Both the position numbers and the translations under genes were made by a program. Below, in pieces: positions 39,872-50,690 of a stretch of 64,000 bases of DNA. The notes beneath the pieces are model-generated. The model searched no databases. It was not told the origin of the DNA and was given only the letters and a program-made list of their open reading frames with translations. The stretch is from Microbispora sp. NBC_01189. Lineage in GTDB: Bacteria > Actinomycetota > Actinomycetes > Streptosporangiales > Streptosporangiaceae. Every line of letters begins with the position of its first letter. The stretch's first letter is position 1. Where the stretch lies: assembly GCF_036010665.1 (NCBI RefSeq), contig NZ_CP108581.1, positions 5,017,501 to 5,081,500 of the forward strand, in the 5' to 3' direction.

Positions 39872-40843
39872 TCAGTGCCAGAGCGCGGCGGCGACGAGCT
39901 CGGGCACCAGCGTCTCGGTGAGCAGGGCGACGTCCGGGTCGTCGTCGTGCCGGTACCGCACCGCCGCCGCCTGCCCCTCGGCCTCGCCGCCGACGGTGAG
40001 CACCCGCGATCCACGCTGTCTGATCCACTCCATCGCCTGGTCGTCGTACCGCGAGCCGGGGAACAGGACGGCCCGGTAGTCGTAGGTCTTGGTGAGGTAG
40101 ACGTCCACGTGCGCCCAGTCACCCGTCTCGCACGCGTCGGCTTGGCGGCGCGGGCCCTCGCGGAACATCAGCGCCGACTGCTCGGCCGACGACAGCCGCT
40201 CGGCGGGGGCGATCGTGTAGACGCCGTGCGGCCCGTCGAGCAGCGCCACGGCGTCCGCGAGCCACTCCGGCCGCCGTTCCAGGAGGTCGGCGGTGGCCTC
40301 CGCGGCCCGCCGTACGAGGCCCGCCACGGCCACGGGGCCCTCGGCGAGCGTGAGCAGGAGGGCGAGCGTGTGCTGGAACGTCCGGCAGGCGACGCCGCCC
40401 CGCTCCTCGCCCGCGAGCATCGGCACGACCAGGTCGGCGCCCTCGGTCACCGGGGATCCGGGCCGGTTGGTCAGCGCCACGACGAACGACCTGCCCGTGT
40501 GCCGGGCCAGGGCGTCGAGGGTCTCCCGGCTGCCGCCCGACGCCGAGACGACGACGGCGGCCGTCCGCGGGCCGGGCGGGGTGCCGAGCGCGGCGGAGGC
40601 GTACTCGGCGACCGCGTCCACCCCGGCCGCCCGCAGCCGCCCCGCCGCCACCCTCGCCGCGTAGCGGGAGCTGCCCATACCGAGGAAGACGATCCGGTCG
40701 AACCGCCGTGCCAGCCCCTCGAACGGATCGCCGGCGTCCAGCAGCCGGGCCAGCGCCGCCAGCGCGGCCGGCTTGGCCTCCAGGTCCTCCCCGAACAACG
40801 TCGAGTCCACCGGCTCCACCCTCTCTTCACGCGGGCCGCTCAC
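39872..40843 (-). CDS. SIS-domain sugar isomerase/deaminase-like protein
   Basis: The 323-residue protein has two SIS subdomains, as in the isomerase half of GlmS or in AgaS/FrlB-like enzymes. FLGMGSSRYAARVAAGRLRA and VVVSASGGSRETLDALAR are the phosphosugar-binding loops. EQSALMFREGPRRQADACET carries the likely catalytic Glu, and VLFPGSRYDDQAMEW is also typical. It probably acts on an amino-sugar phosphate (isomerisation/deamination), a natural next step after the adjacent kinase, whose stop lies 9 bp upstream. Start GTG 40843 has no good ribosome site; inner GTGs (40822, 40810) are possible. The reaction is inferred. Confidence 0.8.
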   Translation of the reverse strand: MSGPREERVEPVDSTLFGEDLEAKPAALAALARLLDAGDPFEGLARRFDRIVFLGMGSSRYAARVAAGRLRAAGVDAVAEYASAALGTPPGPRTAAVVVSASGGSRETLDALARHTGRSFVVALTNRPGSPVTEGADLVVPMLAGEERGGVACRTFQHTLALLLTLAEGPVAVAGLVRRAAEATADLLERRPEWLADAVALLDGPHGVYTIAPAERLSSAEQSALMFREGPRRQADACETGDWAHVDVYLTKTYDYRAVLFPGSRYDDQAMEWIRQRGSRVLTVGGEAEGQAAAVRYRHDDDPDVALLTETLVPELVAAALWH

Positions 40844-40852
40844 ACGGGCCGC

Positions 40853-41941
40853 TCATGCGAACCAGGACCGCAACACGCCCATCGGGGCGTACCGCCAGCG
40901 CGGCAGGTGCCGGGTGGCGTAGATCAGCTCCCGGCACTCCTGCTCCACCTCGAACGGCCGCAGCAGCGACGCGTCGAGCAGGCCGGACCGTCCGGCTTCC
41001 GTCAGCGTCCGTGTGTAGGCCGTCCGGAGTCTCCGCCGCGCGGAGACGGCCCAGGCGGCCGTCGCGGCGGGGTCGGCGGACCTGCGCCTGACCGCCACCT
41101 GTCCCGCGTGGTCCACACTCGTGGTGAGCTGCGCGAGGTCGCGGGCGGCCGGCTGGTACGGATCGGCGCCCGCCACGGTCGGGTTGCCGTCGAAGTCGAC
41201 CACCGCGTAGCCGTTCCGCCACCGCAGGATCTGCCCCACGTGCAGGTCGCCGTGGACGCGGATCAGCGGCGTGGCGGCGAGCGACGCGAGGGGCTCCAGT
41301 TCGCTCCGCAGCGCCTCGGCCCGTCCCGCCAGCCACGCGCCGTCTTCGCCGTCCGTCAGCGTCAGCGCCTCGCGCAGCGCCTCCTCGGCCCGCTCACGCC
41401 ACGCACCGGAGCCGGGCGGCGACAGCCGTACGGGGTCGGGGAAGACCGCGGACGGGGTGGCCGTCGCGAGGTGCAGTTCGGCGGCGAGGGAGCCGATCTC
41501 GCCCGCGAAGTCCGTGCTGCCCGCCTCCGCCTCGTCGACGCACCACTCCCAGCCGTCCCGCGCCTCCGGCAGGTAGGCGGTCACCAGGGCGACCAGCGCA
41601 TCCTCCCAGTAGACCGCGGCGTACGGCGCGGCCGTACGGGCGAAACCGGTCAGATGGGCGAGCAGGTCGGGCGCCGGGTGCGGGGCCCGCGAGGGCCGGG
41701 GGAACCACTTGACCACCACGGTCTCGCCCGCGATCACCGAGTGGTTGGTCTGGTCCACCGTTATCGGCCGCTCCCCGGCCGGCACCGGCGGCAGTGGCAG
41801 GAGCGCGCGCACCGAGAAGGGCGGCGGAGCGGCTCCCCGCGCCAGGTCGCGCAGAACGCGCTCGGTGACGCCGTCGCCTGTCTCCAGCGCGAGGACGCCG
41901 TCCGGCCCCTCGGTCACCCGAGGCCAGCGGGACCCTTCCAC
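40853..41941 (-). CDS. Maltokinase-like sugar kinase, glucosamine-kinase type
   Basis: The 362-residue protein has the aminoglycoside-phosphotransferase/maltokinase fold. The N-terminal cap domain has RPITVDQTNHSVIAGETVVV with the ATP-site Lys in VVVKWF. The catalytic core has IRVHGDLHVGQILRWRNGYA and VVDFDGNPTVAG (the second Asp binding metal). It is shorter than maltokinases (about 450 residues) and, with its SIS-domain neighbour, matches the actinobacterial glucosamine kinase type (GlcNK) rather than Mak. The likely reaction is ATP + glucosamine to glucosamine 6-phosphate. GTG 41941 has AGGAG 5-6 bp upstream, which is preferred over the TTG at 41965. Operator site A overlaps this ribosome site, so expression is probably repressible. 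Confidence 0.75.
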   Translation of the reverse strand: MEGSRWPRVTEGPDGVLALETGDGVTERVLRDLARGAAPPPFSVRALLPLPPVPAGERPITVDQTNHSVIAGETVVVKWFPRPSRAPHPAPDLLAHLTGFARTAAPYAAVYWEDALVALVTAYLPEARDGWEWCVDEAEAGSTDFAGEIGSLAAELHLATATPSAVFPDPVRLSPPGSGAWRERAEEALREALTLTDGEDGAWLAGRAEALRSELEPLASLAATPLIRVHGDLHVGQILRWRNGYAVVDFDGNPTVAGADPYQPAARDLAQLTTSVDHAGQVAVRRRSADPAATAAWAVSARRRLRTAYTRTLTEAGRSGLLDASLLRPFEVEQECRELIYATRHLPRWRYAPMGVLRSWFA

Positions 41942-41949
41942 TCGATCTC

Positions 41950-41965
41950 CTGAATGTGGATTCAA
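41950..41965. promoter_or_regulatory. TetR operator candidate, site A (CTGAATGTGGATTCAA)
   Basis: A 16-bp dyad with half-site GATTCAA is shared with sites B (46472) and C (46539). It lies between the divergent sugar kinase and polyamine-type ABC operons and overlaps the kinase ribosome site. Relative to site C it keeps the whole right half and 4 of 7 left-half bases. Confidence 0.6.
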
Positions 41966-42065
41966 TACGACAACAGAAAGCGGAGGTAGACGTGATGGCC
42001 AAAGTCTTGTCTACGTTGAGCCGTCCTGCAACACTTGCCGCCATCCTCACGCAAGGGAGCTCCCC

Positions 42066-43154
42066 ATGACTCGTCGCGTGCCCGTCGTGGCCTCCGCCTT
42101 TCTGGCGTTCGCGCTGACCGCCTGCGGCGGAGGTTCGCCGACCGACTCCGCGCCCGCGGGCCTCGACGCCAAGGCGGACCTGTCCAAGCAGAGCCTGACG
42201 ATCTCGATCTGGGACGGTTACAGCCCGAAGGATCTTCCGGAGCGAGTGAAGGCCAAGCTCGGGTTCGACACCAAGGTCGCCATCCACGACACGAACGAGA
42301 CGATCGTGGCCAAGCTGACCGCAAGCGGCGACAGCGGCATCGACGTGGCGTTCGTGTCCGGCCAGTACGCGCAGGCGCTCAACGCGCAGGGCCTGCTGGA
42401 GCCCATGCACCGCGAGCTGATCCCGAACCTGAAGAACCTCTACCCCGAGGCGTCGCAGCTCGCCTACGACAAGGGCAACGCCTACTCCGTCCCGTACACC
42501 TGGGGCACCACCGGGCTGTGCTACCGCAGCGACCTGGTGAAGACCCCGCCGAGGAGCTGGAACGACCTGCTCGACCCGGCCCCCGAGCTGAAGAAGAAGA
42601 TCACGATGATGACCACCGAGCGGTGGCTGGCGCTACCCGCGCTCAAGCTGCTCGGCGCCTCGGTCAACACCACCGACAAGGCGGTGCTCGACAAGGCCAA
42701 GGCGATGCTGCTGAAGGTCAAGCCCGACCTGCTGGCCTACGACGACACCACGTTCGGCGACCGGCTCAAGTCCGGCGAGGCCGTGATGGTCGAGGCGTGG
42801 GACGGCTGGTGCCCGACGGCGGAGAAGAACATCGAGTTCGTGGTGCCGAAGGAGGGCAGCGACCTCTGGGCCGACACGATGGTGATCCTCAAGAGCTCGA
42901 AGAACAAGGAGGCGGCGCACGCCTTCGTCAACTACATCCTCGACCCCGAGGTGCACGGCTGGGTGCCCGCGAACATCCTCTACAGGATCCCCAACAAGGC
43001 GGCCATGGACAAGGTCGACCCGAAACTGCTCGAGAGCTACCCGACGCTGGCGGAGTCGCCGTCCGAGCTGCTCAAGGGCGAGAGCCTGGTCGACCTCGGC
43101 GAGGCGTCCACCGCGTACACGCGCCTGTCCACCGAGGTCTCGGCGGCGCAATGA
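42066..43154 (+). CDS. Polyamine-type ABC transporter substrate-binding lipoprotein
   Basis: The 362-residue lipoprotein has a signal (VPVVASAFLAFALTAC) with lipobox LTAC (Cys20), then a type II binding-protein fold resembling PotD/PotF (LTISIWDGYSPKDLPERVKA, YSVPYTWGTTGLCYRSDLVK, GEAVMVEAWDGW). A WDGY/Trp pair and acidic residues of this kind coordinate polyamines in PotD, so putrescine, spermidine or a similar cation is likely. The ATG at 42066 has AAGGGAG 8 bp upstream. Its stop overlaps the next start (ATGA), opening a four-gene operon. Confidence 0.88.
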   Translation: MTRRVPVVASAFLAFALTACGGGSPTDSAPAGLDAKADLSKQSLTISIWDGYSPKDLPERVKAKLGFDTKVAIHDTNETIVAKLTASGDSGIDVAFVSGQYAQALNAQGLLEPMHRELIPNLKNLYPEASQLAYDKGNAYSVPYTWGTTGLCYRSDLVKTPPRSWNDLLDPAPELKKKITMMTTERWLALPALKLLGASVNTTDKAVLDKAKAMLLKVKPDLLAYDDTTFGDRLKSGEAVMVEAWDGWCPTAEKNIEFVVPKEGSDLWADTMVILKSSKNKEAAHAFVNYILDPEVHGWVPANILYRIPNKAAMDKVDPKLLESYPTLAESPSELLKGESLVDLGEASTAYTRLSTEVSAAQ

Positions 43155-44017
43155 CGGCCCGACAGCCCGCCCGCGTGCTCGGGAAGGCGGCCGGCCGTCT
43201 CGCGACGATGGGGCCCGGGTTCGGCTTCCTGACCGTCTTCCTGCTGGTCCCGCTGGCGCTGGTGCTGAGCTACACCGTGTTCCGGCGGGGCCGGTTCGGG
43301 GGAGTGGTCCACGAGCCGACCGGGGAGAACTTCGCCCGCCTCGCCGACCCGCTCTACCTCGACGTGGTGGCCGGGTCGGTGAAGCTCGCGGCGATCACGA
43401 CGTTGCTCGCCCTGCTGCTCGGCTACCCCACGGCGTACCTGATCGCGAGGCTGCCCGCCCGGTGGAAGGTGATCGCCCTGGTGGCGGTCGTGCTGCCGTT
43501 CTGGACGAACTTCCTCATCCGCACGTACGCCTGGATCGTGCTGCTCAACTCCGAGGGGCCCGTGAACTCCGGTCTGAAGGCGCTCGGGCTGGGACCGGTG
43601 GAGCTGCTCTACACGGACGGCGCCATCGTGGCCGGGCTGCTCTACGCCTATCTCCCGCTGATGATCCTCCCGCTGTATTCGGCCGTGGAGCGGCTGGACC
43701 CGGAGTTGCGGGAGGCCTCGGCGAACCTCGGCGCGCGACCGGCCAGGACGTTCTGGTCGGTCACGCTCCCGCTGTCGCTGCCCGGAGTGCTGACCGGATG
43801 CGTGTTCGTGTTCGTGCCGAGCCTGGGCAACTTCGTGATCCCCGAACTGCTCGGCGGCGGTCGCCGGATCATGGTCGGCAACCTCATCCGCGACCAGTTC
43901 CTCAAGGCCCGCGACTGGCCGTTCGGGTCGGTGCTCGCGCTGGCCGTGATCGCCGTGCTCGTGCTGCTGCTGTTCGCCCAGGCGTGGGCCGCGCGGAGGG
44001 CGGGACGCGGTGCGTAG
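43151..44017 (+). CDS. Polyamine-type ABC transporter permease, PotB-like
   Basis: The 288-residue inner-membrane permease has about six transmembrane helices. The BPD_transp_1 EAA motif (REASANLGARPARTFWSVTL, PLSLPG) docks the ATPase. The preceding FWTNFLIRTYAWIVLLNSEG is typical of PotB/PotH. It starts with the ATG that overlaps the binding-protein stop (ATGA) and overlaps the next permease by 8 bp, so the operon is tightly coupled. Confidence 0.92.
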   Translation: MTARQPARVLGKAAGRLATMGPGFGFLTVFLLVPLALVLSYTVFRRGRFGGVVHEPTGENFARLADPLYLDVVAGSVKLAAITTLLALLLGYPTAYLIARLPARWKVIALVAVVLPFWTNFLIRTYAWIVLLNSEGPVNSGLKALGLGPVELLYTDGAIVAGLLYAYLPLMILPLYSAVERLDPELREASANLGARPARTFWSVTLPLSLPGVLTGCVFVFVPSLGNFVIPELLGGGRRIMVGNLIRDQFLKARDWPFGSVLALAVIAVLVLLLFAQAWAARRAGRGA

Positions 44018-44783
44018 ACACGGCTGGCTCCGGCTGCCCTTCTGGCTGACCTATCTGTTCCTGTACGCGCCGATCGTCGTGCTCGTCGTGATGTCGTTCA
44101 ACCGGAACAGGTCGCCCTACTCGTGGGGCGGCTTCTCCCTCGACTGGTACGGCAGGCTGGCGGGCAACGCCTCGATCCGCACCGGTCTGGTCAACACGCT
44201 GATCGTCGCCCTCGGGTCGACGGCGCTGTCCACGGTGCTCGGCACGCTCCTCGCCGTCGGGCTGGCCCGCCACACCCGCTCGCGGCTGCTCGACGCCCTC
44301 TCGACGCTGCCCGCGATCCTGCCCGACATCGTCATCGCGATCGGACTCCTGGCGTTCTACTCCGCGATCAAGCTGACGCTCGGGCTGCACTCCGTGCTGA
44401 TCGCGCACACCGTCTTCGGCATGGCCTTCGTCGCGGCCGTCGTCCGGGCCAGGCTCGGCGGAATGGACACGTCGCTGGAGGAGGCGTCCCGGGACCTCGG
44501 CGCGGCCCCGCTGACGACGTTCGTGAGGATCACGCTGCCCACGCTCGCCCCGGGCATCGTCGCGGGCGCGCTGCTCGCCTTCACGCTCTCGCTGGACGAG
44601 TTCGTGATCGCGTTCTTCACCGCGGCTCCGTCCGAGCCGACGCTGCCGATCGTCATCTACTCCATGGTGCGGTTCGGCGTGACCCCCGAGATCAACGCGC
44701 TGGCGACGCTGCTGCTCGCGGTGAGCTTCACCGTCGTGATCGTCGCACAGCGCCTGACCAGGCTGACCGAGGCACTGAAATGA
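44010..44783 (+). CDS. Polyamine-type ABC transporter permease, PotC-like
   Basis: The 257-residue second permease has an N-terminal helix LPFWLTYLFLYAPIVVLVVM and then SFNRNRSPYSWGGFSLDWY, characteristic of PotC/PotI. The EAA loop is EEASRDLGAAPLTTFVRITL, PTLAPG. LSLDEFVIAFFTAAPSEPTLP is also a PotC hallmark. The GTG start lies inside the end of the PotB-like gene, and its stop overlaps the ATPase start (ATGA). It forms the membrane channel as a heterodimer with the PotB-like subunit. Confidence 0.92.
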   Translation: MRRHGWLRLPFWLTYLFLYAPIVVLVVMSFNRNRSPYSWGGFSLDWYGRLAGNASIRTGLVNTLIVALGSTALSTVLGTLLAVGLARHTRSRLLDALSTLPAILPDIVIAIGLLAFYSAIKLTLGLHSVLIAHTVFGMAFVAAVVRARLGGMDTSLEEASRDLGAAPLTTFVRITLPTLAPGIVAGALLAFTLSLDEFVIAFFTAAPSEPTLPIVIYSMVRFGVTPEINALATLLLAVSFTVVIVAQRLTRLTEALK

Positions 44784-45829
44784 CTCTCATCTCCATCGAC
44801 GGCGTGAGCCGCCGGTTCGGCGAGGTGACCGCGCTCGACTCGGTCAGCCTCGACATCCGGCAGGGCGAGTTCTTCGCCCTGCTGGGGCCGTCCGGCTGCG
44901 GCAAGACCACCCTGCTGCGGATCCTCGCCGGGTTCGAACAGCCCGACACCGGCTCGGTGCGCCTCGACGGGGCCGACCTGCTCGCGATTCCCGCACACCG
45001 CCGCCCGGTCAACCTCATGTTCCAGTCGTACGCCCTGTTTCCGCACCTGAGCGTGGAGAAGAACGTGGCGTACGGCCTGGAGCGGGAGCGGCTGCCCCGC
45101 GCGGAGATCCGGGAGCGGGTCGCCGCGGTGCTGGAGACCGTCGGCCTGGCCGCGCAGGCCCGGCGCAGGCCGCACGAGCTGTCGGGCGGGCAGCGCCAGA
45201 GGGTCGCCCTGGCCAGGGCCGTCGTCAAGCGTCCCCGGCTGCTGCTGCTCGACGAGCCGCTGAGCGCGCTGGACAAGAAGGTCAGGTCGGAGATGCAGCT
45301 CGAACTCAAGCGGCTGCAGCACGAGGTCGGCATCACGTTCGTCGTGGTCACCCACGACCAGGAGGAGGCCATGTCGCTCGCCGACCGGATCGCGGTGCTG
45401 AACGGCGGCCGGGTCGAGCAGGTGGACACCCCCGTGGACCTCTACGAACGGCCGCGCACGCCGTTCGTGGCCGGCTTCATCGGGGCGAGCAACCTGTTCA
45501 CCGGCAGGGCGACCGGCAAGGGGCTGGACGTGGACGGGCTGGGCGTGCTGCCCGCGCCCGCGGGGCCCGTGGAGGGCGGGACGGCGATGCTCGCCGTACG
45601 GCCGGAACGGGTCCGCCTCGGCTCGGTCACGGCCGGCCAGGGGGCGCTGCGGGGCAGGGTCGTCGACGTCAGCTTCTACGGAGGCGTCTCCCATGTGGTG
45701 TTGAGTGTGGCGGGCCACGACCGCACCGTGCTCGCGGCCACGCAGGGGCGGGCCAGGGTGGAGGCCGGCGCCGAGGTCGCCCTCTCGTGGGACGCCGACG
45801 ACGGCGCGCTCGTCCCCCTGACCCCGTGA
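44780..45829 (+). CDS. Polyamine-type ABC transporter ATPase, PotA-like
   Basis: The 349-residue ATPase has Walker A GPSGCGKTTLL, Q-loop FQSYALFPHL, signature LSGGQRQRVALARAVVKRP, Walker B LLLLDEPLSAL with D-loop, and switch His in VVTHDQEEAM. A C-terminal TOBE/OB regulatory domain (about 235-349; GRATGKGLDVDGLGVLPAPA, MLAVRPERVRLGS) is as in PotA. It completes the importer: one binding protein, two permeases and this dimerising ATPase. The gene ends 11 bp before the end of the convergent TetR gene. Confidence 0.94.
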   Translation: MTLISIDGVSRRFGEVTALDSVSLDIRQGEFFALLGPSGCGKTTLLRILAGFEQPDTGSVRLDGADLLAIPAHRRPVNLMFQSYALFPHLSVEKNVAYGLERERLPRAEIRERVAAVLETVGLAAQARRRPHELSGGQRQRVALARAVVKRPRLLLLDEPLSALDKKVRSEMQLELKRLQHEVGITFVVVTHDQEEAMSLADRIAVLNGGRVEQVDTPVDLYERPRTPFVAGFIGASNLFTGRATGKGLDVDGLGVLPAPAGPVEGGTAMLAVRPERVRLGSVTAGQGALRGRVVDVSFYGGVSHVVLSVAGHDRTVLAATQGRARVEAGAEVALSWDADDGALVPLTP

Positions 45830-45840
45830 GGCCGCCGGGG

Positions 45841-46458
45841 TCAGGGGCCGTCGGCGGGCCTGAGCGGGTTGCCCGTGGCCAGGCGGGCGTAGTCGAGGAT
45901 CAGCTCGACGGCCCTGTCCGGGTCGATCGAGTGGTGCCGGGCGATGACGCGGTAGCCGTACGCGTCCTCCAGGGCGACGAGGTTGCGGGCGATGGTCTCG
46001 GAGTCGTGCGCCAGCGTGAAGACGCCGTGGGCGGCGCCCGTCTCCAGGATCGTCTGGTACATCGACACCTGCCGGTCGAACAGCGTGGTCAGCAGCGCCG
46101 CGTAGACACGGTTGCGGCCGGCGGCGCCGCCGAGCTCGCACAGCAGACGCACGCCCGCGTCGTCCGGGCCGTCGGGCAGGCCGGAGCGGATCGTGATGAT
46201 GAGCTTCTCGGCCGGGTCGGAGACGCCGCTGATCTTCTTCATCCGCCGCTCGTAGAAGCGCTCCATGCCGGCGTGATGGGCCTCGATCAGCAGCTCGCGC
46301 AGGTCGGGATAGTGATAGAGCACCGCGCCGGAGGTGAGCCCCGCCTCCTCGGCGATCTGGTTGAGGTGGACCCCCTCGGCACCGTGCTGGATCATCGCCC
46401 GGTGGGCCGCGTCGATGAGGTCGAGACGCCGGTCCGCTTTGCTCTTGCGCTGTGCCAT
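45841..46458 (-). CDS. TetR family repressor of the amine/glycosyltransferase locus
   Basis: The 205-residue TetR protein has an HTH at about 10-57 (RRLDLIDAAHRAMIQHGAEG, VHLNQIAEEAGLTSGAVLYH, YPDLRELLIEAHHAGME). A ligand-binding helical domain follows. The ATG at 46458 has AGGGGTGGG immediately upstream; the longer reading frame to 46554 would run through the operators and is rejected. It is divergent from the glycosyltransferase operon, with two 16-bp dyads in the gap (sites B and C) and a third at the ABC/kinase divergent promoter. It is therefore inferred to be an autoregulated local repressor of all four transcription units. Ligand unknown; an amine or its metabolite is likely. Confidence 0.9.
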   Translation of the reverse strand: MAQRKSKADRRLDLIDAAHRAMIQHGAEGVHLNQIAEEAGLTSGAVLYHYPDLRELLIEAHHAGMERFYERRMKKISGVSDPAEKLIITIRSGLPDGPDDAGVRLLCELGGAAGRNRVYAALLTTLFDRQVSMYQTILETGAAHGVFTLAHDSETIARNLVALEDAYGYRVIARHHSIDPDRAVELILDYARLATGNPLRPADGP

Positions 46459-46471
46459 CCCACCCCTGTCA

Positions 46472-46487
46472 TTGCACCCAGGTTCAA
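46472..46487. promoter_or_regulatory. TetR operator candidate, site B (TTGCACCCAGGTTCAA)
   Basis: A 16-bp dyad with the same frame (TTGnAnC-NN-GnTTCAA) as sites A and C lies 14 bp before the tetR start codon. This is the right place for autorepression. Confidence 0.55.
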
Positions 46488-46538
46488 TCGGGCGCCACGA
46501 TACCGCGCCAACCCTTGACGGGTGTAGCAAGTCCGTAT

Positions 46539-46554
46539 TTGAATCTCGATTCAA
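46539..46554. promoter_or_regulatory. TetR operator candidate, site C (TTGAATCTCGATTCAA)
   Basis: The most symmetric of the three sites, with perfect 7-bp arms and a 2-bp centre, lies 22 bp before the glycosyltransferase start. A -35-like TTGACG (46515-46520) lies upstream, so site C falls on the expected -10 region. A repressor bound here would block polymerase. Confidence 0.65.
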
Positions 46555-46575
46555 CTAGCTTCAGAGGAGCCTCGA

Positions 46576-47865
46576 ATGACGGCCACGCCCTTGACGATCC
46601 TGTTCATGCCGGAGAGCGCCTACGGGCCGACGAACAACTGCGTCGGGATCGGCGACGTCCTGCGCCGCCGTGGCCACCGCGTGGTGTTCGCCGCCGAGGC
46701 GTCGTGGAAGGGCAAGCTGGAGGCGCTGGGCTTCGAGGAGGACCTCGTCGACCTGGCGCCGCCCGCGCCCGAAGGGCAGGACACGACGGAGCAGGACCCG
46801 GGCCAGTTCTGGAAGGACTTCATCCGCGACACGGCGCCCGAGTACCGCAAGAGCACGGCCGAGCAGCTGGAGACCGTGACCAAGCCGATCTGGGACGCGC
46901 TCATCGACGGCGCCAAATACTGCGAGCCGCAGCTCAGGGCCATCATCGAGCGGGTGCGGCCGGACGTGATCGTCGAGGACAACGTGGTGGCCTTCCCCGC
47001 CCTGGTGACGGCGGGCGTCCCGTTCGTGCGGATCGTGTCGTGCAACCCGCTGGAGGTGAAGGGCCCGGGCGTGGCCCCCCCGTTCTCGGGCCTGCCCGCC
47101 GACGGGACGGGCTGGGCGGAGTTCCGGGCCGAGTACGACCGGACCCACCGTGAGGTGTGGGAGTCGTTCAACGAGTGGGTGGTCGCGCAGGGCGCCCCGC
47201 CGCTGCCGGACCTGGAGTTCATCCACGAGGGCGACGCGAACCTGTACGTGTACCCCGGGATCGTGGACTATGCGGCCGACCGGCCGCTGGGCGCGTCGTG
47301 GACCCGGCTGGACTCGTCGGTGCGGGAGACCGACGACGACTTCACGCTCCCGGACATCCCGGGCGAGGGCTCGCTGATCTACTTCTCGCTGGGGTCGCTC
47401 GGCTCGGCCGACGTCGAGCTGATGCGCCGCGTGATCTCGGTGCTGGCCCGCACGCCGCACCGGTACATCGTCTCCAAGGGCCCGCTGCACGAGGAGATCG
47501 AGCTGGCTCCCAACATGTGGGGGGCTGAGTTCGTCCCGCAGACAAAGATCATTCCGCTGGTCGACCTGGTGATCACGCATGGCGGCAACAACACGACGAC
47601 CGAGGCGTTCCACTTCGGCAAGTCCATGATCGTGATGCCGCTGTTCTGGGACCAGTACGATAACGCCCAGCGCGTGCACGAGACCGGGTACGGCGTCCGC
47701 CTGGACACCTACCGCTTCACCGACGACGAGCTGATCGGGGCCATCGGCGCACTGCTGGGCGACCAGGACCTGCGGGACCGGCTCGCCGCGGCCGGCGAGG
47801 AGATCCGCCGTCGTGACGGTCTGCGCGTGGCCGCGGACGTCATCGAGAACGTCGCGGCGAAGTGA
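46576..47865 (+). CDS. GT1-family (MGT/UGT-like) glycosyltransferase
   Basis: The 429-residue GT-B enzyme has an N-terminal acceptor domain (LTILFMPESAYGPTNNCVGI, GDVLRRRGHRVVFAAEA) and a C-terminal nucleotide-sugar domain. The latter has IYFSLGSLGSADVELMRRVI and the donor signature VITHGGNNTTTEAFHFGKSM (diphosphate-binding HGG and Glu), then FWDQYDNAQRV where the conserved Asp-Gln contacts the sugar. Macrolide and small-molecule glycosyltransferases share this. The ATG at 46576 has AGAGGAG 8 bp upstream. It is first in an operon with an amine oxidase and aldehyde dehydrogenase, an unusual partner, so the acceptor could be the amine or a product of its oxidation. Donor and acceptor are not known. 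Confidence 0.88.
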   Translation: MTATPLTILFMPESAYGPTNNCVGIGDVLRRRGHRVVFAAEASWKGKLEALGFEEDLVDLAPPAPEGQDTTEQDPGQFWKDFIRDTAPEYRKSTAEQLETVTKPIWDALIDGAKYCEPQLRAIIERVRPDVIVEDNVVAFPALVTAGVPFVRIVSCNPLEVKGPGVAPPFSGLPADGTGWAEFRAEYDRTHREVWESFNEWVVAQGAPPLPDLEFIHEGDANLYVYPGIVDYAADRPLGASWTRLDSSVRETDDDFTLPDIPGEGSLIYFSLGSLGSADVELMRRVISVLARTPHRYIVSKGPLHEEIELAPNMWGAEFVPQTKIIPLVDLVITHGGNNTTTEAFHFGKSMIVMPLFWDQYDNAQRVHETGYGVRLDTYRFTDDELIGAIGALLGDQDLRDRLAAAGEEIRRRDGLRVAADVIENVAAK

Positions 47866-47893: not shown

Positions 47894-47925
47894 GATCGAG
47901 GACGCCGCGTGATCGAGGACGCCGC
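47894..47925 (+). repeat. 15-bp direct duplication spanning the oxidase start codon
   Basis: GATCGAGGACGCCGC occurs at 47894-47908 and again at 47911-47925, separated by GT. The first copy holds the GAGGA ribosome site, the GTG start falls at the junction, and the second copy encodes residues 2-6. It duplicated the initiation region and may provide two alternative start contexts. Confidence 0.75.
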
Positions 47926-49282
47926 TCCCCGGGTCTTCTGGACCGACCGGCCTGGGGCGCCCGGCCCCTACGAGCCGCTGCACGGCCGTACGACGGCGGA
48001 CCTGCTGGTCGTCGGCGGCGGCTTCACCGGCCTGTGGGCAGCCGTGCTGGCCAAGCAGGAGAACCCCGCCTGCGACGTCGTCCTCGTGGAGGCCCGCTCC
48101 GTCGCGTACGGCGCGAGCGGCCGCAACGGCGGGTTCATCGCCGACTCCCTGACCCACGGCATCGGCCACGGGGTGCGGTTGTGGCCGTCGGAGAACGCGG
48201 CGCTGCTCGCGCTCGGACGCGCGAACCTCGCGGCCATCGCCCGCTTCGTCGACGACCACGGCATCGACGCCGACCTCCGCCTGGTCGGCAAGACCACGGT
48301 CGCGGTCGCCCCCCACCAGGTGGAGGAGCTGAGGCGGGCCGAGAAGCTGCACCGCGAGCACGGCGAGGACGCGGTGTTCCTCGGCCGTCACGAGATGCGC
48401 GCGGACGTCGACTCGCCCACCTACCTCGCGGGGCTGCGCCTGCGCGGCACGGGCGGCCTCCTCGACCCCGCCGGCCTGGCGTGGGGACTGGTCCGCGTCG
48501 CGGCCCGGCTCGGCGTGCGGGTCCACGAGGGCACCGAGGTCACCGCGCTGACCCGGACGCGGACCGGCGTGGAGGCCAGGACGGGAGGCCGGGCGGTGGT
48601 GAACGCCGGGCAGGTGCTGCTGGCCACCAACGCCTTCCCCTCGCCCCTGCGCAGGCTGGGCCTGTTCGTGCTGCCCGTCTGGGACTACGTGCTCGTCACC
48701 GAGCCCTTGTCGCCCGAGCAACGGGCGTCGATCCGGTGGCCGGAGGGCCAGGGCCTGACCGACGCGGGCAACCAGTTCCACTACTACCGGCTCACCCGGG
48801 ACGACCGCATCCTGTGGGGCGGGTACGACGCGGTGTACAACTTCGGCGGCGGGGGATCGGAGCAGCGCGACGCCTCGCACGAGCGGCTCGCGCGGCACTT
48901 CTTCGCGACGTTCCCGCAGCTGCGCGGTCTGCGCTTCACGCACAGGTGGGGCGGCGTGATCGACTCGACCAGCCGGTTCACCCCGTTCTTCGGCAGGGCC
49001 ATGGGCGGGCGGCTGGCCTACGCCCTCGGCTACACCGGCCTCGGGGTCGGCGCGTCCAGGTTCGGCGCGCTGGTCGGCCTCGACCTGCTGGCCGGGCGGT
49101 CCACCGCGCGGACGAGGCCGCGCATGGTCCGCCGCCACCCGGTGCCGTTCCCGCCGGAGCCGCTGCGCTGGCCGGTGGTGGAGCTCACCCGCCGCGAACT
49201 CGCCCGCGCCGACGACAACGAGGGCCGCCGGGGCCCCTGGCTGCGGCTCCTCGACCATTTCGGCATCGGCTTCGACAGTTAA
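47909..49282 (+). CDS. FAD-dependent amine/amino-acid oxidase, DadA/PuuB-like
   Basis: The 457-residue flavoenzyme of the DAO family has the dinucleotide fold LLVVGGGFTGLWAAVLAKQE with the ribose-binding acid in VLVEARSVAYGASGRNGGF. HRWGGVIDSTSRFTPFFGRA and YALGYTGLGVGASRFG line the active site, as in gamma-glutamylputrescine oxidase and related amine oxidases. With the downstream aldehyde dehydrogenase it should oxidise a primary or secondary amine to an aldehyde plus NH3 and H2O2, and the dehydrogenase would then make the acid. GTG 47909 has GAGGA 7 bp upstream. A gene for a gamma-glutamyl-amine synthetase (puuA) is absent from the window. Confidence 0.88.
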   Translation: MIEDAAPRVFWTDRPGAPGPYEPLHGRTTADLLVVGGGFTGLWAAVLAKQENPACDVVLVEARSVAYGASGRNGGFIADSLTHGIGHGVRLWPSENAALLALGRANLAAIARFVDDHGIDADLRLVGKTTVAVAPHQVEELRRAEKLHREHGEDAVFLGRHEMRADVDSPTYLAGLRLRGTGGLLDPAGLAWGLVRVAARLGVRVHEGTEVTALTRTRTGVEARTGGRAVVNAGQVLLATNAFPSPLRRLGLFVLPVWDYVLVTEPLSPEQRASIRWPEGQGLTDAGNQFHYYRLTRDDRILWGGYDAVYNFGGGGSEQRDASHERLARHFFATFPQLRGLRFTHRWGGVIDSTSRFTPFFGRAMGGRLAYALGYTGLGVGASRFGALVGLDLLAGRSTARTRPRMVRRHPVPFPPEPLRWPVVELTRRELARADDNEGRRGPWLRLLDHFGIGFDS

Positions 49283-49292
49283 GGAAAACCGC

Positions 49293-50690
49293 ATGACGAT
49301 ATTGATCAATCCCGCCGACGGCCAGGTCGTCGAGGACGTGCCCGACACCCCGCTCGACGGCGTGACGCGGGCCGTACGCGCGGCCCGGGAGGCCTTCGAG
49401 CAGTGGCGCGAGACGACGCCGGGGGAGCGTGCGCGGGTGCTGCTGCGACTGGCGGACCTCGTCGAGCGGGACGCCGGGGAGCTGACCCGGCTGGAGGTCG
49501 AGGAGACCGGCAAGCCCGCCGCCGTGTTCCGGGACGGCGAGCTGCCTTTCGCCGTCGACAACCTCCGGTTCTTCGCCGGCGCGGCCAGGTCCCTCGACGG
49601 CACGGGCGCGGGCGTGTTCAGCGCCGGATACACGTCCGTGCTGATCAAACGGCCGATCGGGGTGGTGGGCGCGATCGCGCCCTGGAACTTCCCGTTCATC
49701 ATGGCGGTCTGGAAGATCGGCCCGGCCGTCGCCGCGGGGAACGCCGTCGTGATCAAACCGGCACCCCGGACGCCCCGCTCCACGCTGCGGCTCGCCGAGC
49801 TGTTCACCGAGGCCGGGGCCCCGGAGGGCCTCGTGCGGGTGGTGACCGGCGGCGCCGAGGTGGGACGGACCCTGGTGACCGATCCCGGCGTGGACATGGT
49901 CAGCGTCACCGGGTCCACCGCGACCGGCCGCGAGGTCATGCGCGGAGCGGTGGACGGCCTCAAGCGGGTCCATCTGGAGCTGGGCGGCAAGGCGCCCGCG
50001 CTGGTGTTCGCCGACGCTTCGCTGGAGGACATGGCGGCCGGGGTCGTCATGGGCGCCACCTACAACACCGGCCAGGACTGCACGGCCGCGACCAGGGTGT
50101 ACGTCGAGAGGTCGCGGTACGCCGAGGCGGTCGAGGCGCTGCGGGAGACCATCGCCCGCGTCCGGCCGGGTGACCCCTGGGCGGCCGACGCCGACATCGG
50201 CCCGCTGATCAGCGCCGAGCACCGCGAGCGGGTCCACGGCTTCGTGACCAGGGCGTCCGGCCGCGTCGTCCACGGAGGCGGGCCGATCGACGGCCCCGGT
50301 TTCCACTACACGCCCACGCTGATCGCCGACGCCGACCCGGCGAGCGAGATCGTGCGGAGCGAGATCTTCGGCCCGGTGCTGGTGGCGATGCCGTTCGACG
50401 GCGAGGACGAGGCGGTGCGGCTCGCCAACGCCACGCCGTACGGGCTGGCCTCGTCGGTGTGGTCCACGGACGTGGCCCGCGCGCTGCGCGTCTCCCACCG
50501 CCTGGACGTGGGCGTGACGTGGGTGAACGACCACCTGCCCATCGCCTCGGAGGCCCCGCACGGCGGTGTCAAGGGCAGCGGGTTCGGCAAGGACATGAGC
50601 CAGGAGGCCGTGCGGGAGTATTCGGTCACCCGGCACCTCATGATCAAGCACGCGGCCCCGGAGGCGCGCGACTCCTTCCGCCCGGCCTGA
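49293..50690 (+). CDS. Aldehyde dehydrogenase, gamma-aminobutyraldehyde/betaine-aldehyde type
   Basis: The 465-residue ALDH begins close to the catalytic fold and shows IAPWNFPFIMAVWKIGPAVA, VTGSTATGREVM, general-base Glu in VHLELGGKAPALVF, nucleophile Cys263 in NTGQDCTAATRVYVERS and the end motif WVNDHLPIASEAPHGGVKGS. QDC-T-A and VNDHLPIASE are typical of PatD/YdcW-type aminobutyraldehyde dehydrogenases. It is 10 bp downstream of the amine oxidase and last in the TetR-linked operon, so the route amine to aminoaldehyde to omega-amino acid is a good reading. Its product could feed the gabT locus elsewhere in this window. Confidence 0.9.
   Translation: MTILINPADGQVVEDVPDTPLDGVTRAVRAAREAFEQWRETTPGERARVLLRLADLVERDAGELTRLEVEETGKPAAVFRDGELPFAVDNLRFFAGAARSLDGTGAGVFSAGYTSVLIKRPIGVVGAIAPWNFPFIMAVWKIGPAVAAGNAVVIKPAPRTPRSTLRLAELFTEAGAPEGLVRVVTGGAEVGRTLVTDPGVDMVSVTGSTATGREVMRGAVDGLKRVHLELGGKAPALVFADASLEDMAAGVVMGATYNTGQDCTAATRVYVERSRYAEAVEALRETIARVRPGDPWAADADIGPLISAEHRERVHGFVTRASGRVVHGGGPIDGPGFHYTPTLIADADPASEIVRSEIFGPVLVAMPFDGEDEAVRLANATPYGLASSVWSTDVARALRVSHRLDVGVTWVNDHLPIASEAPHGGVKGSGFGKDMSQEAVREYSVTRHLMIKHAAPEARDSFRPA

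Follow-up and report, generated by a model that had tools for sequence, protein, structure and literature searches.

A predicted TetR regulon with four paired dyads joins a divergent Pot-type import cassette to glucosamine-kinase genes in Streptosporangiaceae

Two described gene sets come close to the locus considered here. An association in Actinobacteria of genes for a glucosamine kinase, a SIS-domain protein and a GT1-type glycosyltransferase was described in 2019, and the physiological role of actinobacterial glucosamine kinases was said there to be without experimental evidence (PMC6520443). A set of genes for a Pot-type importer, an oxidase and a dehydrogenase is known from work on polyamines in Streptomyces (PMC5403932). 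In a 64-kb stretch of the 7.37-Mb genome of Microbispora sp. NBC_01189 (G000:C1:5017501-5081500; the window, within which the dyads and genes were located), genes of both kinds surround a gene for a TetR-family regulator and four 16-bp dyads. TetR repressors of the kind that governs divergent, autoregulated operons carry a TetR_N domain and exert local control through dyads that lie over promoters. The preliminary description of the locus had held that it matches no described pathway; each of the two gene sets is in fact known, and for their union under one TetR, searches of an open-licence library gave no description. Taken as a whole, the locus is probably best explained by a TetR protein that would control it through four operators and, with it, an amine/glucosamine route. 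The initial observation is thereby confirmed and extended, and the polyamine reading attached to it is weakened.

The window unit has in common with the SjGlcNK system the kinase signature, the D-x-H motif and the SIS and GT1 neighbors (PMC6520443), whereas it adds a Pot-type importer, an aldehyde dehydrogenase (ALDH) and, in some loci, an oxidase, under what appears to be one TetR; moreover, kinase-SIS-GT1 genes accompanied by an importer also occur in very small genomes. With S. coelicolor SCO5666-5671 it shares a Pot-type ATP-binding cassette (ABC) importer, a PuuB-like oxidase and an aminobutyraldehyde-type dehydrogenase (PMC5403932), but it differs in gene order, in the lack of an AsnC-type regulator, in the altered pocket of its solute-binding protein (SBP) and in the added kinase-SIS-GT1 genes and TetR. 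Judged from sequence, the unit is a divergent copy of an actinobacterial polyamine import-oxidation cassette combined with a glucosamine-kinase/SIS/GT1 triad. What sets it apart from known TetR repressors is that its four sites stand in pairs at 66-67 bp. We take the gene order of SCO5666-5671 to be ALDH-ATPase-SBP-permease-permease-oxidase, an order that does not occur in the window unit.

Three of the dyads, to none of which a strand is assigned, had been reported before and are present in the sequence: A (41950..41965, CTGAATGTGGATTCAA) at the kinase start, B (46472..46487, TTGCACCCAGGTTCAA) 13 bp upstream of the tetR start, and C (46539..46554, TTGAATCTCGATTCAA), a perfect site that covers the GT1 operon's -10 region. 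A fourth, D (42016..42031, TTGAGCCGTCCTGCAA), had been overlooked; it was found from a conserved TTGAW-N6-TGCAA block ahead of the SBP gene and lies within the probable promoter of the ABC operon. Site B, the weakest of the four, is a D-type dyad in reverse direction. The sites had been placed in three promoter regions, and while the sites stand, the number does not, as there are two intergenic regions and B and C share the tetR/GT1 gap. Relative to TTGAATCNNGATTCAA, A has two mismatches, B three and C none. With up to three mismatches, TTGAATCNNGATTCAA occurs at 19 places genome-wide, three of which are A, B and C, all inside 4.6 kb, and the control, the same 16-mer pattern read backwards, gives two per strand in the same genome. 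The perfect core site, TTGAA-N6-TTCAA, has a single occurrence in the 7.37-Mb genome, which is site C, and TTGNA-N6-TTCAA occurs at three places, namely B, C and one elsewhere. Thus, the 16-mer is not spread over many promoters, either in the scan of this genome or in 200 genomes of the family. The half-site GNTTCAA, by itself weak evidence for operators, is found 10 times in the window against 5.1 expected, with at least 10 in 4 of 100 shuffles. Chance matching is ruled out as an origin of the dyads by the genome scan, the single perfect core and the conservation in orthologues relative to shuffles; they are real and greatly exceed what chance would give. The third TTGNA-N6-TTCAA place (G000:C1:6175856-6175871, or L002 1501-1516; TTGCATCCCGATTCAA) lies upstream of SRPBCC-like and FAD-monooxygenase-like reading frames, both identified by eye.

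A comparative check found the dyads at most orthologous loci. A search for TetR homologues (E 1e-20) in 200 genomes of the Streptosporangiaceae gave matches in 81, with identities running from 100 to 69% and then falling to 43%; 80 regions were fetched, 70 from the upper range (L035-L104) and 10 from the lower (L105-L114), and the former together with the window make up a set of 71 orthologous tetR loci. With no more than one mismatch, the core of site A is present in the kinase/ABC promoter of 66 of 68 loci (three of the 71 lack a scorable region), against 0.38% of shuffles, the null being dinucleotide-resampled regions, and that of site C in the tetR/GT1 promoter of 68 of 71 loci, 60 of them perfect, against 0.34%. 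Across the 1.33 Mb of the 71 loci there are 94 perfect cores, and the perfect best sites in the two promoter regions number 33 and 60, or 93. The exact 16-mer pattern occurs in 23 of the 200 family genomes, once in each, and in 23 of 23 it lies at the tetR locus by comparison of coordinates; the reversed control occurs in eight. Among the 10 lower-identity loci, L106 has a two-mismatch match and the rest have none or a four-mismatch match only. A second set of 80 named loci, which overlaps the first in species and in which Microbispora species, at identities of up to 96%, come closest in the GT1 gene, has C in 65 of 69, A in 55 of 57 and D in 51 of 55 loci, each where scorable. When genes have moved, the sites are found with them: at loci with an inverted kinase gene (L064-L066) the dyads move along with the gene, a relocated SBP-GT1 pair (L188) is preceded by a core site with one mismatch and a D-type site with none, and in L097, where the remainder of the unit was not found, the dyad stays with tetR.

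The sites are also placed regularly with respect to one another and to likely promoter elements. Among the 60 loci with a good site A, a D-type site, one mismatch being allowed, is found at an offset of 66 bp from A in 51 and of 67 bp in four, and at no other offset in the 450 bp scanned; in nine of 71 loci B stands 67-69 bp away from C, each time with one mismatch or none. Information content per column is 1.38 bits in A, 0.83 in the A-D interval and 1.13 in D, and because the interval is itself partly conserved, the A-D spacing is not wholly independent evidence. Column conservation also outlines a block, GTCTTG...TGCAACACT (42004..42035, + strand), which stands before the moved pair in L188 as well and is a probable ABC-operon promoter, with TTGTCT and AACACT as its likely hexamers, 17 bp apart, and TGC before the second. 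Upstream of the GT1 operon, TTGACG (46515..46520, + strand) is a likely -35 box; each base of ttgac is found in at least 65% of 68 loci, and the start of dyad C lies 24 bp further on, so that C overlaps the expected -10 region as had been proposed. A simple sigma-70 scan gave no promoter in 41850-46650, and the boxes are therefore read from conservation alone. Site A touches the kinase ribosome site, again as described before, with the AGGAG at 41947-41951 and the GTG start at 41939-41941; this start was chosen for its AGGAG, and the longest open reading frame begins at a TTG at 41965, within the dyad. A 24-aa reading frame before the SBP gene was dropped as a candidate, since among the 17 loci compared it is kept only in close relatives.

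The TetR-family regulator (45841..46458, - strand; PF00440, E 1.3e-9) belongs to its family by the TetR_N domain, which scores 38.1 bits against a cut-off of 24, and falls below all NCBIfam cut-offs among the matches listed. In 73 TetR sequences of at least 65% identity, the stretch presumed to form the recognition helix is 99% identical, as compared with 78% for the C-terminal part. A tie between the protein and the dyads is suggested by co-occurrence in 55 further GT1 loci, 53 from outside the family and two from within it (L168, L170), where, with up to two mismatches allowed, nine of 11 loci with TetR have a core site versus five of 44 without. Four Microbispora genomes that lack a TetR match also lack a GT1 match (E 1e-100). 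At L166, TTGAATCATGGTTCAG (2279-2294) stands where a reading frame begins that by eye resembles TetR; a GT1-kinase-SIS unit lies about 7 kb away.

What mechanism would account for this arrangement? The best reading is a TetR repressor that acts locally and on its own gene, each of its four target promoters having a single operator. TetR (45841-46458) would bind the dyads, of the form TTGNA-N6-TNCAA, at A for the kinase-SIS operon, D for the ABC operon, B for tetR itself and C for the GT1-oxidase-dehydrogenase operon, and would control the unit and little or nothing beyond it. Dimers bound there would shut off transcription by occupying the -10 or spacer region, C lying over the likely -10 box, D in the spacer and reaching the likely -10 box, and A abutting the kinase ribosome site. 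The dyads of each same-gap pair, 66-67 bp or about 6.3 helical turns apart, may allow neighboring dimers to cooperate, or the spacing may reflect fixed promoter distances alone. An inducer derived from the pathway would then free the DNA from TetR. The importer would carry a cationic compound suited to a pocket that has a single site for an amine and an extra tryptophan. An amine would be converted to an acid by the dehydrogenase and, at loci that have it, the oxidase, and the kinase and SIS protein would take glucosamine by way of glucosamine 6-phosphate (GlcN-6-P) to fructose 6-phosphate and ammonia. The case for a TetR regulon over the kinase/SIS, ABC, tetR and GT1 units, as first proposed, is strong by comparison of loci, and the number of sites is now extended by D.

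Several points count against a four-operator TetR unit that serves an amine/glucosamine route. Site B is missing from most relatives, A is present only in degenerate form in two of 68 loci and C in three of 71, and D is absent at 66-67 bp in five of 60; because D overlaps a promoter-like block, part of its conservation may be that of a promoter and not of an operator. In the co-occurrence comparison, the scan covered roughly twice the number of positions in GT1 loci with TetR as in those without. At the 61 orthologous loci covered by 19 kb of sequence or more, the oxidase gene is missing from 36 and GT1 from 13 (it lies elsewhere in the genome for 12 of those), and the kinase, SIS, GT1 and ALDH genes are kept without this importer in four; because gene content varies, the importer-oxidase route cannot be the sole role. 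No glycosidase was found among the ten unit genes scanned, the flanks not having been searched for one, and the kinase and SIS protein score far under NCBIfam equivalog cut-offs.

The importer genes comprise those of a PotD/PotF-family SBP (42066..43154), a PotB-like permease (43151..44017; NF007044, E 1.2e-74, below cut-off), a PotC-like permease (44010..44783; NF007047, E 3.6e-70, below cut-off) and a PotA-like ATPase with a TOBE domain (44780..45829; TIGR01187, 358.7 bits against a cut-off of 355.6; PF08402), all on the + strand. In some loci the ATPase has an Ala/Glu-rich low-complexity insertion of up to about 330 residues (L043) just ahead of its C-terminal TOBE part (L043 8286-9295, L079 8865-9280, L071 8837-9440). 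The SBP is assigned to PotD/PotF by sequence and fold (predicted local distance difference test score, pLDDT, 85.7), and Pot proteins head its fold lists, with opine, gamma-aminobutyrate and sugar SBPs lower, which does not settle the ligand. Of the PotD residues, W34, Y37, S83, W229, W255 and D257 are each retained by at least 60 of 61 SBPs. PotD D168, in contrast, is replaced by Thr and E171 by Trp in 60 of the 61, the window protein included and L187 being the exception. We take these two acids to be the ones that bind a polyamine's far amine. The importer had been called a polyamine importer, and its place in the PotD family stands, but with both far-amine acids gone from the SBP a polyamine cargo is doubtful.

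A second cassette in the window genome (L270) has an AsnC-type regulator together with ALDH, ATPase, SBP, PermC and oxidase genes, the latter five in SCO5666-5671-type order, with an oxidase 56% identical to that of the window. Its SBP retains both D168 and E171, and the window unit therefore looks like a retargeted copy of a polyamine cassette. The better candidate ligand is a monocationic amine, which may be an amino sugar, since a monocation that bears a ring, as amino sugars do, would suit a Trp next to one retained Asp. An alternative explanation is that the unit takes up and oxidizes polyamines or glycosylated polyamines under TetR, with the importer carrying polyamines and GT1 glycosylating them. 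In keeping with this explanation, it is Pot proteins that come closest to the importer among named relatives, and at L171 the unit shares 20 kb with genes for an agmatinase, a histone-deacetylase-type protein and two carbon-nitrogen hydrolases, one of which has N-carbamoylputrescine amidase as its best match, below cut-off. At L187, GT1 directly follows an ALDH-Pot-oxidase operon whose SBP has Asp at both polyamine positions; the ALDH, ATPase, SBP and PermC of that operon are nearer to their L270 counterparts, and for the oxidase the distance is about equal. Against these stands the replacement of the far-end acids in 60 of 61 SBPs while the paralogous cassette of the window genome retains Asp and Glu, and we regard the polyamine explanation as doubtful. 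Loci in other families and classes, together with the amine genes near the L171 unit, are what suggest a link of the unit to amine metabolism.

The glucosamine-kinase-type protein (40853..41941, - strand) has been correctly described as such: QECRELIYATRHLPRW matches the published signature Q-x2-RE-x2-YA-x3-LP-x-W, and the D-x-H motif is present as DLH. The signature is exact in 75 of 97 kinase sequences; the other 22 comprise two truncated sequences, four distant ones and a remainder with one or a few deviating positions. As its score to NF041273 (E 2.2e-81, 274 bits) is below the 550-bit cut-off, we call it glucosamine-kinase-type rather than an equivalog. The SIS-domain protein (39872..40843, - strand; PF01380, E 3.2e-7, 30.6 bits against a cut-off of 25) has 7kqa (E 1.5e-7), 8eol and 3hba (both E 1.8e-7) among its nearest solved relatives, which include a GlcN-6-P deaminase of the NagB-II type and a putative phosphosugar isomerase; at 31.6 bits to the NagB-II equivalog NF046059 (cut-off 430), it is not assigned to GlcN-6-P deaminase. 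It is possible to imagine a catabolic route for N-substituted glucosamine or sugar-amine adducts, in which the adduct is imported, the kinase phosphorylates its sugar, the SIS protein frees sugar phosphate and amine, and the amine is oxidized. We judge this unlikely, as it leaves no role for GT1, a well conserved partner, the solved SIS relatives listed are of deaminase, synthase and isomerase type, and the characterized kinase relatives use glucosamine (PMC6520443).

The third operon begins with the GT1-type UDP-glycosyltransferase (46576..47865, + strand), which has relatives across the phylum, is 53-81% identical to nine selected ones, and scores 58.4 bits to the UDPGT domain PF00201 against a cut-off of 19.5. 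Its nearest solved relatives are the spider-mite UDP-glycosyltransferases (UGTs) UGT203A2 (E 1e-75) and 202A2 (E 5.6e-63), ahead of macrolide glycosyltransferases (E 7.4e-21), and it aligns over nearly its whole length with the UGT202/203 detoxification enzymes (7lvy, 6pnt); those are enzymes of mites, whereas the window GT1 is bacterial. A bacterial origin of mite UGTs is held by earlier studies, and PMC7738191, which cites them, itself found no clear signature of transfer. Because it is closer to the mite UGTs than to the macrolide enzymes, the GT1 family may be near the bacterial source of the mite genes. The gene that follows encodes a FAD-dependent oxidase of the DAO superfamily (47909..49282, + strand; PF01266, E 3e-52; TIGR03329, 200 bits, below cut-off), which is probably an amine oxidase; it has no sequence match in the PDB at 1e-8, and its structure model was poor (pLDDT 41.4) and was not used. 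In 35 of the 71 TetR genomes an oxidase was searched for, and all 35 had a match; the idea that a locally missing oxidase is a moved copy was rejected, as the match is a 50-56% identity paralogue that the window genome has too. The last gene encodes an aminobutyraldehyde-dehydrogenase-like ALDH (49293..50690, + strand; NF010000, 609.3 bits against a cut-off of 615).

The order SIS-kinase, ABC operon, tetR and GT1/oxidase/dehydrogenase is widely syntenic in many genera. At the 61 loci counted, the kinase gene is present in 60, SIS in 59, ALDH in 59, the ATPase in 56, GT1 in 48, the SBP in 38 and the oxidase in 25; in two genera without GT1 at the locus, the gene is elsewhere in 12 of 12 genomes, and the one examined (L188) adjoins an SBP gene. 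GT1 matches were found in 56 of 394 genomes of the class (1e-60), including two of about 1.3 Mb, and in 35 of 296 of the phylum (1e-80). Loci were fetched from 38 of the 43 additional class genomes with a match; a second copy in G033 and a fragment of TetR complete the set L150-L189. GT1, kinase and SIS occur together in 28 of these 38 genomes, a Pot-type importer in 15 and TetR in 11, and several loci have GT1-kinase-SIS divergent from SBP-permeases-ATPase-oxidase-ALDH with TetR in between. In other classes, where 17 of 32 genomes with a match were fetched, an importer, ALDH or oxidase gene is near GT1 in five (L281, L283, L288, L292, L295) and not in the other 12. In the family of G251, GT1 (1e-80) is found in one of 12 genomes, G251 itself.

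Some further features of these loci deserve mention. L168 and L170 have two tandem GT1 copies, 62-68% identical to that of the window, and no kinase, SIS or Pot-type importer match within the 20 kb fetched. Saccharopine-dehydrogenase-like genes lie near GT1 and Pot importer genes in L185, L187 and L292 (the last by eye), and the one in L187 is nearest to carboxynorspermidine synthase, below cut-off. Within L067-L104, many units are flanked on both sides by four-gene sets (f2, f7, f4, f6; about 1000, 140, 130 and 200 aa), which we take to resemble conservons (CvnA-D), and in L097 tetR is inside a set of this type.

What, then, might a glycosyltransferase contribute to an amine/glucosamine route? 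One scheme is that the amine is conjugated to a sugar by GT1 before or during its oxidation, in analogy to the gamma-glutamylation of the known polyamine pathway, and that the freed amino sugar is recycled by kinase and SIS protein under the four-operator TetR switch, phylum-wide; in this full form the scheme is distinctly unlikely. An improbable alternative is secondary metabolism, in which the kinase, SIS protein and GT1 would make an amino sugar and attach it to a natural product, a role proposed for the kinase family from gene neighborhoods (PMC6520443). The unit is, however, syntenic across many genera, and the importer and GT1-kinase-SIS genes are present in two genomes of about 1.3 Mb (L171 and L172, with a clear ALDH, at 60%, in L171 alone); as such small genomes carry the unit, nutrient use is favored over a purely secondary-metabolic role. 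That the dyads belong to conserved promoter sequence or serve a different regulator, and are not TetR operators, as the overlap of D and C with promoter-like blocks might suggest, is highly improbable, given that the dyad symmetry itself is retained, A lies outside both blocks, and the sites track the TetR gene in the further GT1 loci and remain with it in L097.

With TetR control of an amine/glucosamine route as the preferred reading, the unit offers the actinobacterial glucosamine kinases a likely importer, a likely deaminase and a likely regulator, and it shifts the view of these enzymes from secondary metabolism toward nutrient use. The operator pattern, with its dyads and their spacing, provides a direct handle on the system, and the inducer of TetR would name the substrate of the pathway.

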